From Methanotrichaceae archaeon (GTDB taxonomy: Archaea; Halobacteriota; Methanosarcinia; Methanotrichales; Methanotrichaceae), in the NCBI GenBank assembly GCA_013178225.1, contig JABLXE010000021.1, forward strand, positions 1-35,797: a stretch of 35,797 nucleotides of DNA, written 5' to 3'. The notes under the pieces were generated by a model. That model was not told the origin of the DNA. It made no database searches and was given only the letters and a program-made list of their open reading frames with translations. A program made the position numbers and the translations under genes. Positions 22,453 to 29,351 of the stretch are shown here, piece by piece. Each line of letters opens with the position of its first letter. Within the stretch, counting starts at the first letter, position 1.

Positions 22453-23196
22453 ATGAGTTTTCAATTTTTAGCGATCACGTGTATCTTGATAGCAATGAGT
22501 TATGGGCCGATATGTTTGGCAGAAGTTGATGAAAAAATGGCTAATGGTACCCATAATTCCACTGATGTACCTCAGGAAATTGTCGTGTGTACTGGATGGC
22601 ATGCCCTTTGTACTGCATCCCACGACTGCATAATGCATGGCGACAAGGCTGATTGCGACTGTATGAGGGTTAATGAAACCCATATTGTTGTAACAAGCGA
22701 AATCCAGGATACTGAGATCAAAAACCTGACGGAGGCCCAATGCACTAATAAACATCCTTGCGATGTAGATCAAGCTCCTGTTTGTAACGCCATTAAGTAC
22801 GGACCGTATAAAGTTGATAATGTTACGTATGATTGGGTATCGACTTATTCTTATCGTGGATGGTGTGACCTTTGGCTGAAGCCAACAGTTTGTGATCAAA
22901 ACGCAACAGGTTATACCGGAGATAGATATTGGGCTATCTGTGATGGCGCTCCATGCACGGAAAACCAGAATCCATCCAATCCAGATAAACCCTTGAGCTG
23001 TCAGTGTCGGGTAAATGATACACCATTTGTGGGAATTAATGGCCGCTGCACCGGTGATGACGGTGGGATAATGTCAAGCATGCCTCTATGGGCATGGGAT
23101 TTCCGAAACAACACATACCCGTTTCCTATGCCTGGCTATGAATACGTAAAGAGTGCATGTGCCGATTTGAAATCTGATCCGTGGCCACCGAGATGA
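22453..23196 (+). CDS. secreted Cys-rich, N-glycosylation-site-rich protein
   Basis: A 247-residue protein with a signal peptide (about 1-23) and no other membrane segment. The mature part has 16 cysteines, many in close pairs (DCDC, SCQC), which suggests many disulfides. At least eight N-x-T sequons are present (NGT, NST, NET, NLT, NVT, NAT, NDT, NNT), so it is likely heavily glycosylated on the cell surface. AAGGGG nine bases before the ATG supports the start. Base composition is more AT-rich than the block to the left. No family was recognised. Confidence 0.75.
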   Translation: MSFQFLAITCILIAMSYGPICLAEVDEKMANGTHNSTDVPQEIVVCTGWHALCTASHDCIMHGDKADCDCMRVNETHIVVTSEIQDTEIKNLTEAQCTNKHPCDVDQAPVCNAIKYGPYKVDNVTYDWVSTYSYRGWCDLWLKPTVCDQNATGYTGDRYWAICDGAPCTENQNPSNPDKPLSCQCRVNDTPFVGINGRCTGDDGGIMSSMPLWAWDFRNNTYPFPMPGYEYVKSACADLKSDPWPPR

Positions 23197-24080: not shown

Positions 24081-24121
24081 AACAGAATATTAGAATTAAT
24101 TTTCTTCAAGGAGTGAGCGTT

Positions 24122-24859
24122 ATGATTGAGCCATTCGTATCCAGGATGATAGCATTATCTGTGTTGCTGATGCTTATGTTTTTTCCATCTCTTGTTCTGG
24201 CAACAGAGACGGGAACGCCCAATATTGCGATCAAAGATCCTTCTGACGGATCGGAAATTGCTGCGGGAAATGTGATTGTATCAGTTGAAGTTATGAACTT
24301 TTCACTGGCAGATAAATTCGGCCAGGAAAATGTTGCCGGCGAAGGGCACATTCACTACTACATAGATGCAGCAGTCCCCACGGAGCCCGGAAAACCAGCC
24401 ATCTCTGCCCCAGGTACATATATACCCTCTGCAGAAATTACCCATACATGGCAAAATGTGATTCCAGGACCACATAACCTTTCTGTTCAACTGGTGAACA
24501 ACGACCATACACCACTTGATCCATCCGTCGTAGACACCGTGAACGTCACCGCGCTCTCTGCAGCTAATGAGGCCGTGGTGGATCTGATTGCCCGAGGAAT
24601 CGCCTTCAATACCAAGAGCATCACGGTGCCCGCAGGCTCAATGGTCACGGTCAACTTTGATAACCAGGACTCTGGAATTAGACACAATTTCGCTGTTTAC
24701 GACTCTTCCGCTGCTGAAAAAGTGATCTTTAAGGGAGACCTCATAACCGGCCCGAGAAAGATTACCTATACCTTCCAGGCACCTGATGAGCCAGGGGTCT
24801 ACTTCTTCCGCTGCGATCCCCATGCTCGGATCATGAACGGTCAGTTCATTGTTCAGTAA
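24122..24859 (+). CDS. secreted two-domain cupredoxin
   Basis: A 245-residue secreted copper protein. GGAG nine bases before ATG 24122 fixes the start; an upstream GTG is less likely. A signal peptide (1-27) is followed by a DUF4399-like domain (about 33-142) with GEGHIHYYID and PGPHNLSVQLVNNDHTPL. The C-terminal domain (about 150-245) is plastocyanin-like. H188 (RHNFAVY) and the cluster C231, H234 and M238 (FRCDPHARIM) form a type I copper site. It should act as a small electron carrier outside the membrane. The quinoprotein-like gene follows 47 bases downstream, making electron transfer between the two products plausible. Confidence 0.9.
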   Translation: MIEPFVSRMIALSVLLMLMFFPSLVLATETGTPNIAIKDPSDGSEIAAGNVIVSVEVMNFSLADKFGQENVAGEGHIHYYIDAAVPTEPGKPAISAPGTYIPSAEITHTWQNVIPGPHNLSVQLVNNDHTPLDPSVVDTVNVTALSAANEAVVDLIARGIAFNTKSITVPAGSMVTVNFDNQDSGIRHNFAVYDSSAAEKVIFKGDLITGPRKITYTFQAPDEPGVYFFRCDPHARIMNGQFIVQ

Positions 24860-24906
24860 ACGAGATTGAGGATCGCATGAGACCGATATAGGACGAAATC
24901 GAGAGG

Positions 24907-26469
24907 ATGATGGAATTGAAGTCTGAAAAAGCCCGCTTTAGTGAGATGGTGTTGCTGATTTTCCTGGCAGCACTCTTGATCATGCCTACCTGGGCTGAGG
25001 ATGCAGGACCTGTCCCTCCCGAGGTGCTGCAATATTCAATGGACTGGCCGCTTCCAAACAAGGACTATGATAACAGCAGGGCCTCTTTTGATGTGAACAT
25101 CAATTCTGAGAATGCCAAGAGTTTAAAAATGGTCTGGTCGGTTCCCATCAACGCCTCAAGCCTATTTGGTGGAGCCTCCTCCAATCCTTTGATCATGGGG
25201 AACACAGTGTACTTACAGGATCTGCAAAGCAATGTCTACTCGCTGAATCTTATGGATGGAAGGCTCAACTGGCAGCAGATTTACAATCTAACCACCATCG
25301 GCCCCAATGGGCCGGCGGTGGGTTGGGGAAAGGTCTTCTTCGCCAAAGGCGTCTACAAAATCTCGGCTCTGGACAGAGAGACCGGGAACATGATATGGGA
25401 AAGGAACATCTCCGACAAAAGCACCGTAGGGATAGATATCCAACCAGCTGTCTACAACCATACTGTTTATGTGTCCACCGTCCCAGGAACTAGCGCTGAG
25501 GATTTCTACAGCGGCGGAAGTATCGGCGTGATCTATGCCCTGGATCAGCAATCCGGCCGGATTAAATGGAACTTCAGCACTGTTGATACACCTGATCTCT
25601 GGGGCAACAGAGAAGTTAATAGCGGCGGAGGCTGCTGGTACACTCCGTCTGTGGATCTGAAAACAGGAATCATGTTCTGGGGGGTCGGCAATCCGGCACC
25701 CTGGCCGGGGACGCCCCGGTTTCCCAACGGCTCCAGCCGCCCTGGCCCCAACCTTTACACCAACAGCATCCTGGCATTGGACAGCAGCGACGGCAGGCTC
25801 GTATGGTATAACCAGGTCAATCCCCACGATATTCTCGACCTCGACTTCCAGATCCCCCCTATCCTTGCCCGTGCCGAAATTGGCGGAACCGCCCAGGAAA
25901 TAGTGATTGGAGCCGGCAAATTAGGCAAGATTTATGCATTCAATCGATCCACTGGCTGCACGTTATGGACCACAATCGTGGGAACACATCTCAACGACCA
26001 GCTGGCAAAATTGCCCCAAGGGGTGACCAAGGTGTATCCTGGCTACTTTGGCGGAGTGGAAACTCCTATGGCCTATGCTGAGGGAGTGGTGTTTGTCCCC
26101 TACCTCGATCTTTATACCAATTATACAGACAGCAGCATCGTTGAAGCGCAGAGCTTCGACCAGGCTAAAGGAGGACTTGTGGCCATCGATGTCGAGACGG
26201 GCAAAATCCTTTGGGAGAAGACTTTCGATTCCATCAATGTTGGTGGGGCTACCGTAATCAATGATCTGGTCTTTACTGCCACCTTCGACGGGACCATCTA
26301 TGCCTTCCTGAGAGAGGATGGTCGTGAAGCGTGGAGGTTCGAGGCTCCTGCCGGAATCAATGCCTGGCCGGCCGTGGCTGGCGATTCTATCGTCTGGCCC
26401 TGCGGAACTGGTGGCAGACCATCGCTTATCGCCTTAAGCTTTCCCAAAGCAATGCCGATAGGTCCATAA
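24907..26469 (+). CDS. secreted PQQ-type quinoprotein dehydrogenase homologue
   Basis: A 520-residue eight-bladed beta-propeller of the PQQ-dependent alcohol dehydrogenase family, exported by a signal peptide (about 1-30). The repeated A-L-D-x-x-T/S-G-x-x-x-W blades are obvious (ALDRETGNMIW, ALDQQSGRIKW, ALDSSDGRLVW, AIDVETGKILW). Two active-site segments of the family are kept: GNPAPW (261-266) with RPGPNLYTNS (278-287), and NPHDILDLD (305-313), which carry the calcium-binding Asn and catalytic Asp in methanol dehydrogenase-type enzymes. It has no heme-binding CxxCH, so electrons would leave through another carrier, most simply the cupredoxin encoded upstream. Substrate and actual PQQ use are unknown; no PQQ synthesis gene is in the window. 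A strong terminator follows. Confidence 0.85.
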   Translation: MMELKSEKARFSEMVLLIFLAALLIMPTWAEDAGPVPPEVLQYSMDWPLPNKDYDNSRASFDVNINSENAKSLKMVWSVPINASSLFGGASSNPLIMGNTVYLQDLQSNVYSLNLMDGRLNWQQIYNLTTIGPNGPAVGWGKVFFAKGVYKISALDRETGNMIWERNISDKSTVGIDIQPAVYNHTVYVSTVPGTSAEDFYSGGSIGVIYALDQQSGRIKWNFSTVDTPDLWGNREVNSGGGCWYTPSVDLKTGIMFWGVGNPAPWPGTPRFPNGSSRPGPNLYTNSILALDSSDGRLVWYNQVNPHDILDLDFQIPPILARAEIGGTAQEIVIGAGKLGKIYAFNRSTGCTLWTTIVGTHLNDQLAKLPQGVTKVYPGYFGGVETPMAYAEGVVFVPYLDLYTNYTDSSIVEAQSFDQAKGGLVAIDVETGKILWEKTFDSINVGGATVINDLVFTATFDGTIYAFLREDGREAWRFEAPAGINAWPAVAGDSIVWPCGTGGRPSLIALSFPKAMPIGP

Positions 26470-26475
26470 GCAAAG

Positions 26476-26519
26476 CTGCCCGTCCTCTTTAGGATGGGCA
26501 GGTTCTATTTTTGTATTTT
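26476..26519 (+). terminator. strong terminator after the quinoprotein gene
   Basis: An 11-bp stem (CTGCCCGTCCT with AGGATGGGCAG, one G-T pair) with loop CTTT is followed by TTCTATTTTTGTATTTTT. It begins seven bases after the stop codon and closes the cupredoxin-quinoprotein unit. Confidence 0.85.
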
Positions 26520-26678
26520 TAAGCCAATTATTTTTCAAGCAATGTATTGCAAAGCGCTGTAACATTAGTTTTCAATAGGTCAATTGTAAACCTCTTGACC
26601 GACTTTACTAATAATTGACTTTAGAAAAAAACCAAAATTATATACCATTGGAATGCCTATAATAATAGATTGAAGGTG

Positions 26679-27599: not shown

Positions 27600-29351
27600 A
27601 TGAAAATCAGAAATCATTACAATGCGATAATCTTATTGTCATTCCTCTGGTTATCGTCTGCAATGGCCTTTGAGCCCGAGTCGGTCAGCGCCAACCCTGA
27701 TCTGGTCGCTCTCACGGCGGGATGGACGCCACCAACCATATATAACGTAACAGATGGGGTTTATGTCGCCGTGGGCTACGGTCGCGCCAATCCAGTTTTA
27801 ATAGAAGGAACTGATGGCCTTATCGTAGTCGATCCCGGAGAGAGCATAACGTCCGCAAAAATGGTTAAAGCAGCTTACAACAAGCATCTTGACGATATAT
27901 TTTCCAAAAAGCCAGTCAAGGCCATCATCTACACCCACTACCACGACTGCCATATGCAGGGGACTAGCGTCTTTGCTGGGAACGACTCGCCGGAGATTAT
28001 AGCTCATGAGACCTTTGAGAAGAACCTCTTCGGCCCGAGTGCTTTATGCAGTCAGATCTTTCCCGTTAAAGTATACCGGGCAGTTAAGTACGCGGGCATA
28101 CCGTACCAGAATGATCCAGGCTACTTTGTAAATGGCGGCATCTTCCCCTTCTCGATCCCAGGACCGTCGGGATATCTACCGCCCACCAGGACTGTGGGGG
28201 ACATGCTTGAGGCCAATATTGCCGGAGTAAATCTCACCCTAGTCCACGCTCCTGGTGAGACCACAGACATAATCTACGTCTGGCTGCCGGACGAGAAGGT
28301 GATAGTTCAGATAGGGAACTTCTACAAATCGTTTCCAGCCATCAATACACTTCGCGGCGCATCTCACCGCGACCCACTGAACTACATAGCCAGCATAGAT
28401 GATATGAGGAAGCTCAATGCGGAATACCTGGTCTTGATCCACAGCGGCGGTGGACCAATCGTCGGCGCCGAAAATGTCAGCCGTACCCTCACCAACGCCC
28501 GCGATGCTCTCCAGTACGTTCATGACCAGACGGTCCGCTATATGAACAAAGGGCTGATCCCCGGCGAGATCATCGAAGTCATCGAACTGCCGCCCCACCT
28601 CGCCAATGATCCAAACTTGAAGGAATACTTCGGCGAAGTAGATCGAGATATCTTCCAGATCTTCCAGCAGTACATGGGATGGTTTACCGGCAAGAGCAGA
28701 GATATATTCCCGACTTCTCCCCGAGAAGAGGCGGAGGATAGGGCCTACCTGGCCGGCGGCATTGCCGAACTTGCCGTCAAGGCGAAGGCGGCCTTGGATG
28801 AAGGGAATATGAAACGGGCTCTGATATTATCAGATAGTGTCCTCCTCCTCGATCCGCAAAATGCTGAAGCTCGGGATGTCAAAAACTCGTCAATCCTATC
28901 CCTGGCCGAAGAGTCCTCAAATGCTCAGGTGAGAAACTATCTCCTCTCCGAATATCTCGAGGAGACCGGCCAGATAAACATCCCGCTTGATAGGGGCTTC
29001 AGGGTGTTGGACGATAATATAATCTTCTACATGCCCATGGAGGACATATTCAGATGCATGGCCGTGAGCCTCAACGCCTCTAAAGCCTTGGAAGAGGAGT
29101 ACTTGGTTGACCTCACTCTCTCGGATGAGCCCGTCTCTGGCGATTATGTCATATACATTCGAAAGGGGATCGTGGATGTTCAGCAAGAAACGGCTGATGA
29201 TCCCAGGTTCACCATCGTCACCGACTCGCTGACATGGAAGAACCTGGTTTTAGGAAAGCTAAATCCCACGGATGCCGTCACTAACGGAGATGTCGAAATA
29301 AGCGGAGGTGACCCTGAGGAGTTCTATGGATTTATGGATCTCTTCAAATGA
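27600..29351 (+). CDS. secreted alkylsulfatase-like metallo-beta-lactamase protein
   Basis: A 583-residue protein of the SdsA/BDS1 type III linear alkylsulfatase family with a signal peptide (about 1-23). Residues 45-330 form the MBL domain. A helical dimerisation domain (about 375-450) follows (EDRAYLAGGIAELAVKAKAALDEG). The C-terminal SCP2-like domain (about 470-583) contains MAVSLNASKALEEEYLVDLTL. The key metal motif is odd: THYHDCH at 112-118, where family members have T-H-x-H-x-D-H, so the invariant Asp is replaced by Cys. The second metal-ligand region (VHAPGETTDIIYVW, IVQIGN) also departs from the usual Glu-containing form. Catalytic activity is therefore uncertain. GAGGG before the ATG supports the start. 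Confidence 0.85.
   Translation: MKIRNHYNAIILLSFLWLSSAMAFEPESVSANPDLVALTAGWTPPTIYNVTDGVYVAVGYGRANPVLIEGTDGLIVVDPGESITSAKMVKAAYNKHLDDIFSKKPVKAIIYTHYHDCHMQGTSVFAGNDSPEIIAHETFEKNLFGPSALCSQIFPVKVYRAVKYAGIPYQNDPGYFVNGGIFPFSIPGPSGYLPPTRTVGDMLEANIAGVNLTLVHAPGETTDIIYVWLPDEKVIVQIGNFYKSFPAINTLRGASHRDPLNYIASIDDMRKLNAEYLVLIHSGGGPIVGAENVSRTLTNARDALQYVHDQTVRYMNKGLIPGEIIEVIELPPHLANDPNLKEYFGEVDRDIFQIFQQYMGWFTGKSRDIFPTSPREEAEDRAYLAGGIAELAVKAKAALDEGNMKRALILSDSVLLLDPQNAEARDVKNSSILSLAEESSNAQVRNYLLSEYLEETGQINIPLDRGFRVLDDNIIFYMPMEDIFRCMAVSLNASKALEEEYLVDLTLSDEPVSGDYVIYIRKGIVDVQQETADDPRFTIVTDSLTWKNLVLGKLNPTDAVTNGDVEISGGDPEEFYGFMDLFK

Follow-up and report, generated by a model that had tools for sequence, protein, structure and literature searches.

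A secreted cupredoxin and a PQQ-dehydrogenase-like propeller as a probable extracellular redox unit in a Methanotrichaceae archaeon

In a Methanotrichaceae archaeon we identified two adjacent genes for exported proteins, a type-1 copper protein and a homologue of PQQ-dependent alcohol dehydrogenases, which probably form one extracellular redox unit, with a secreted dehydrogenase delivering electrons to a dedicated blue-copper carrier. The genes are located in a contig of 35,797 nucleotides, hereafter the window, which is the entire contig G000:C14 of a 2.98 Mb genome that is 99.8% complete. The initial annotation had described two neighbouring exported redox proteins closed by one strong terminator, and this description stands. 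Both open reading frames were confirmed, both lie on the forward strand with 47 bases between them, and both products begin with a hydrophobic leader of the Sec type, as judged by eye. An intrinsic-terminator-like hairpin (26476-26520, forward strand) closes the pair with an 11-bp stem, a 4-nt loop and a T-rich tail, and the segment 26476-26501 has a folding energy of -21.7 kcal/mol (z -4.5).

The genome is also methanogen-like, as had been suggested, its nearest named relatives being Methanosaeta/Methanothrix of the Methanotrichaceae. Contamination of the contig was considered and rejected, given that 10 further genomes of this archaeal family carry orthologues with 55-80% identity, and that the GC content of the pair (48-53%) fits that of the window (52%). 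Eight other genes of the window (lysS, PIN, Cys-rich, ABM, DUF4440, metallo-hydrolase, HSP20 and sulfate permease) were searched for in relatives (L031-L058) up to about 6 kb from the pair, and none recurs there. The Cys-rich gene (22453-23196, forward strand) encodes an exported protein of 247 residues that matches neither Pfam nor NCBIfam and has no counterpart at related loci. The metallo-hydrolase (27600-29351, forward strand) is an exported alkylsulfatase-like protein (PF14863, PF14864), not conserved beside the pair, with a weak match to the 'quinoprotein relay system zinc metallohydrolase' family TIGR04559 (36 bits, cut-off 280). No cytochrome c gene was found near the pair or near the orthologue of the Methanothrix harundinacea type, and an open reading frame with a CxxCH motif in L042 was rejected as spurious low-complexity sequence.

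The product of the first gene (24122-24859, forward strand; alternatively starting at the in-frame GTG at 24113) is, judging from its sequence, an exported type-1 copper protein, as first proposed. It consists of a signal peptide, a DUF4399-like beta domain (residues ~32-145) and a type-1 copper domain (146-245), and scores above the cut-off for both PF13473 (35.8 bits) and PF00127 (34.2 bits), while missing that of amicyanin (TIGR02657, 20.5 bits against 110.2). The ligand set that defines type-1 copper sites on a cupredoxin fold is complete, with His188, Cys231, His234 and Met238 invariant in an alignment of 15 homologues. The structure model of the copper domain matches auracyanin A, and the best fold and sequence matches are auracyanin A/B and plastocyanin (2aan, 1qhq), which have the same His, Cys, His and Met ligands; the window protein differs from them in its additional N-terminal DUF4399-like domain and in its quinoprotein neighbour.

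The second gene (24907-26469, forward strand) encodes an exported protein of 520 residues, predicted to be an eight-bladed propeller of the PQQ-alcohol-dehydrogenase superfamily, with a PF01011 score of 145.2 bits (cut-off 26.7). The model has a pLDDT of 93.7, and its top 30 PDB matches are all PQQ-dependent alcohol, methanol or sorbose dehydrogenases, the best being PedH (E 1.8e-36), whereas BamB reaches only 3.5e-20 or worse. The propeller nevertheless misses the cut-off of the methanol/ethanol dehydrogenase subfamily TIGR03075 (171.7 bits against 480.05). Repeat propellers encoded on contigs C24 and C27 of the same genome were rejected as paralogues, since they are distant surface repeat proteins. 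Two orthologues elsewhere are interrupted, L034:2876-4468 by one stop codon and L058:3547-5147 by a frameshift, either through sequencing error or through decay.

Active-site residues were assigned from an alignment to methanol dehydrogenase and PedH, together with a family alignment of 58 sequences. The Asn and Asp segments noted in the initial annotation are present, as the motifs GNPAPW and HDxxDxD, and CxxCH is indeed absent, the only cysteines being three scattered ones (Cys243, 351 and 499). W244, N262 and D311 occupy the floor Trp, metal Asn and catalytic Asp positions; the corresponding residues of TIGR03075-type enzymes are W243, N261 and D303, in methanol dehydrogenase numbering, and Arg/Lys331 of these enzymes corresponds to K338. 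W244, N262 and D311 are kept in 57 of the 58 sequences, and D308, D313, K338, N238 and R58 in all of them. The Asp segment actually holds a pair of Asp residues, D311-x-D313, a lanthanide-type signature that had gone unremarked: the extra Asp is a feature of lanthanide enzymes (PMC8546591, PMC11996626), and the D-x-D acidic pair is described as diagnostic of lanthanide binding (PMC11996626). A literature search for 'DYD motif' returned nothing.

The proposal of a Ca/PQQ pocket is thus only partly supported. The Trp of the floor, the Asn of the metal site, both Asp residues (the catalytic and the second one) and the Lys are in place, but other elements of the characterised enzymes are not. The vicinal Cys-Cys disulfide is absent from the window propeller and not conserved among the 58 sequences, the equivalent of Arg109 aligns with Asn134 with no conserved active-site Arg in the family, and the capping Trp is not kept. 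In addition, the Glu55 position is Ser/Thr, the region of the metal Glu177 falls in a gapped, non-conserved loop with Glu198/Asp199, and D177 replaces a PQQ-contacting Thr (D or N in 52/58). Work cited in PMC8546591 links the vicinal disulfide to electron transfer to cytochrome c, so its loss may fit a change of acceptor. The site is conserved without being a textbook PQQ pocket, and the PQQ part of the proposal has half of its support from the alignments.

The suggested search for PQQ synthesis genes came out against an endogenous supply. No pqqC (TIGR02111) was detected in the genome itself or in 40 relatives (0 of 41), nor in any methanogen host searched, and of 50 other hosts of the propeller family two gave a match above the cut-off in the same search; for PqqE (TIGR02109) nothing rose above the cut-off, with radical-SAM background only. 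Either PQQ is scavenged, therefore, or a different cofactor is used. The apo-form of Escherichia coli glucose dehydrogenase can depend on external PQQ, and with this precedent the absence of pqqC is compatible with PQQ use.

The association between the two proteins extends well beyond the window. A genome-wide scan with the quinoprotein alignment gave 66 loci, in methanogens, Chloroflexi, CPR bacteria, Actinomycetota and Myxococcota, and home-made profiles revealed three arrangements of partner domains among them. Linkage to a cupredoxin recurs across phyla, which, together with the orthologues in the family, makes a chance arrangement unlikely. The cupredoxin gene is adjacent in the window and in L031-L034, L058, L040, L043, L044, L047, L049 and L050, and a cupredoxin is fused to the C-terminus of the propeller in L035, L037, L038, L051-L054, L089 and L094. 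In two of these, L035 and L053, of the Methanomicrobiales type, a single chain comprises propeller, DUF4399-like domain and cupredoxin, that is, the two genes of the window fused. The L053 protein (L053:5464-8142) is a four-part chain, with an N-terminal domain that by eye resembles the 'secreted repeat' lipoprotein family. Cupredoxins likewise occur beside, or fused to, distant propellers (27-29% identity), at the N-terminus in the case of G018. Among the Methanotrichaceae genomes with a clear cupredoxin orthologue, 7 of 8 have it beside a quinoprotein, a count in which the propellers of G024 and G003 are distant ones (27-29%). The exception, G008, has no quinoprotein, and its cupredoxin homologue (L114:2355-2900) has lost two ligands (Cys to Ser and the first His to Gln), possibly by decay after the partner was gone.

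In the sister group of the Methanothrix harundinacea type, the fused C-terminal domain is a DOMON domain instead of a cupredoxin (L036, L039, L041, L042, L072 and L108:9593-11785), identified by PF03351 with 88-99 bits and carrying conserved Met and His. This replacement has a single origin in the tree (100/100), within a clade of 16 propellers (98/91) from methanogens and one Chloroflexi, all of which are partnered, 12 with an adjacent or fused cupredoxin and four with a fused DOMON domain. DOMON is the family to which AA8 heme domains belong, and exchange of a cupredoxin for such a domain is what would be expected if the job of the partner is electron transfer. L036, L042 and L072 also have a free DOMON gene alongside, and the genome of the window itself encodes a DOMON lipoprotein with a C-terminal extension (L109:853-2451, on G000:C24), with the same layout in G008 (L113:522-1676). 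In the more distant bacterial members no cupredoxin was detected, suggesting that the propeller can work without one; the 25 families listed around these members include no redox partner, only scattered sulfatases, hydrolases and dehydrogenases.

A second class of quinoproteins shows the same association. Of the three PF13473 cupredoxin domains in the genome, one belongs to the window pair, another is the N-terminal domain of the sole PF07995 protein, of the glucose/sorbosone-dehydrogenase type (GSDH; G000:C25:~135370-137000, L105:2782-4368, minus strand), and the third lies in a Gln-rich surface protein, so that two of three are associated with propellers of the quinoprotein type. Just upstream of the pair in L032 and L034 there is a cupredoxin-GSDH gene, and in Methanoculleus (L051) the gene order is cupredoxin, quinoprotein-cupredoxin, cupredoxin and GSDH-cupredoxin, the last with a C-terminal cupredoxin. 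The PF07995 type has a six-bladed PQQ fold. Two unrelated folds, both PQQ-binding in their characterised members, thus occur with the same copper partner, which suggests electron transfer from quinone to copper. The pair is a genuine one, and the comparative data, namely fusion, conserved adjacency and replacement of the partner, strongly support the idea of an extracytoplasmic electron-transfer module; the transfer itself, and its direction from dehydrogenase to copper, are inferred. A literature search returned no description of a quinoprotein-cupredoxin pair.

Among characterised systems, the lanthanide-type PQQ-alcohol dehydrogenases PedH and XoxF/ExaF (6zcv, 6zcw, 4mae) are the best PDB matches to the window propeller in sequence and fold, at an identity of about 23% over the fold alignment, and share with it the eight blades, floor Trp, metal Asn and D-x-D. 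In contrast to them, the window propeller lacks the vicinal disulfide and the active-site Arg and has no conserved metal Glu, its family is partnered by a cupredoxin or DOMON domain and not by cytochrome c, and its host has no pqqC. Pyranose dehydrogenase of Coprinopsis cinerea combines a PQQ domain with an AA8 cytochrome b domain (PMC6881789), and is thus a secreted PQQ-type propeller with its own one-electron acceptor in the chain; the DOMON-fused proteins L005-L009, with their conserved Met and His, look analogous. The fungal enzyme has, however, the six-bladed AA12 fold, and the copper partner of the window protein is separate. Within the same archaeal family, SqpA (Mthe_0878) of Methanothrix thermoacetophila is an exported PQQ-type propeller with a proposed role in electron transfer (PMC10470525). 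It is probably not orthologous to the window propeller, for which the genome inferred to be M. thermoacetophila gave only weak repeat-type matches.

The initial annotation had offered interspecies electron exchange as an example of what the module might do, a reading in which the cupredoxin and propeller take up electrons from a syntrophic partner (DIET) and pass them to the membrane carriers of the methanogen. SqpA and cell-surface copper-domain proteins have been put forward as candidate uptake proteins in M. thermoacetophila, in a study that calls its own uptake model speculative and found no DIET-specific regulation of such genes (PMC10470525). Many methanogens are found among the named relatives that carry propeller homologues, but the pair is patchy, being missing from many Methanotrichaceae, including the genomes inferred to be M. 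thermoacetophila and M. soehngenii. Usual potentials are about +90 mV for PQQ and about +200 mV or more for cupredoxins. Methanophenazine, for which PMC12072023 quotes -165 mV, lies far below these values, which would make electron uptake by way of it energetically unfavourable, the usual copper and PQQ centres being too high in potential to reduce it. On these grounds we consider uptake very unlikely.

It is also unlikely that the propeller is an 'empty' quinoprotein, serving as a scaffold or binder without PQQ, with the copper protein acting in copper storage or as a chaperone. The loss of the disulfide and Arg, the lack of a conserved metal Glu and the absence of PQQ synthesis would agree with this, and a named acido-empty-quinoprotein family exists (TIGR04528), for which the propeller scores 153.5 bits, below the cut-off of 650. 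Against it, the 58 diverse sequences show little or no variation at the catalytic and metal positions, as would not be expected of an empty site, and storage or chaperoning leaves unexplained both the DOMON swap in the sister clade and the presence of cupredoxins on two unrelated PQQ-type folds. A protective outlet, with oxygen, metal oxides or humic quinones as electron acceptors, giving oxidant tolerance in zones of fluctuating redox conditions, would suit the potentials of cupredoxins, which are appropriate for high-potential acceptors, and the isolate OWC_0023 is among the carriers of the pair; yet no oxidase, multicopper oxidase or cytochrome gene is conserved beside it, and we regard this function as quite improbable. 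A secreted dehydrogenase-to-copper relay is the most economical reading, and the one we favour over interspecies uptake.

In such a dehydrogenase-to-copper relay, the propeller, with its PQQ-alcohol-dehydrogenase fold, would be secreted as a dehydrogenase and would oxidise a small alcohol-, aldehyde- or sugar-like compound at a metal and catalytic site formed by Asn262, Asp311 and Asp313, beneath a quinone stacked on Trp244. Electrons would be passed singly to the dedicated blue-copper partner, which would take the place of the usual cytochrome c and deliver them to an external acceptor whose potential is fairly high. The quinone, if it is PQQ, would be scavenged, and the metal may be a lanthanide or Ca. 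What is known of PQQ and lanthanide biochemistry comes from bacteria, mostly aerobic ones, and methanogens are not known to use secreted quinoproteins for the oxidation of alcohols or sugars. As a more specific and decidedly tentative proposal, on balance rather unlikely, strictly anaerobic methanogens may possess a lanthanide-dependent D-x-D quinoprotein that uses scavenged PQQ or another quinone together with a fused or neighbouring blue-copper acceptor, evolutionarily exchangeable for a DOMON heme-type domain. If the relay is as we propose, it would represent outer-surface redox chemistry in methanogens, with a copper- or quinone-linked electron path that would be directly testable.
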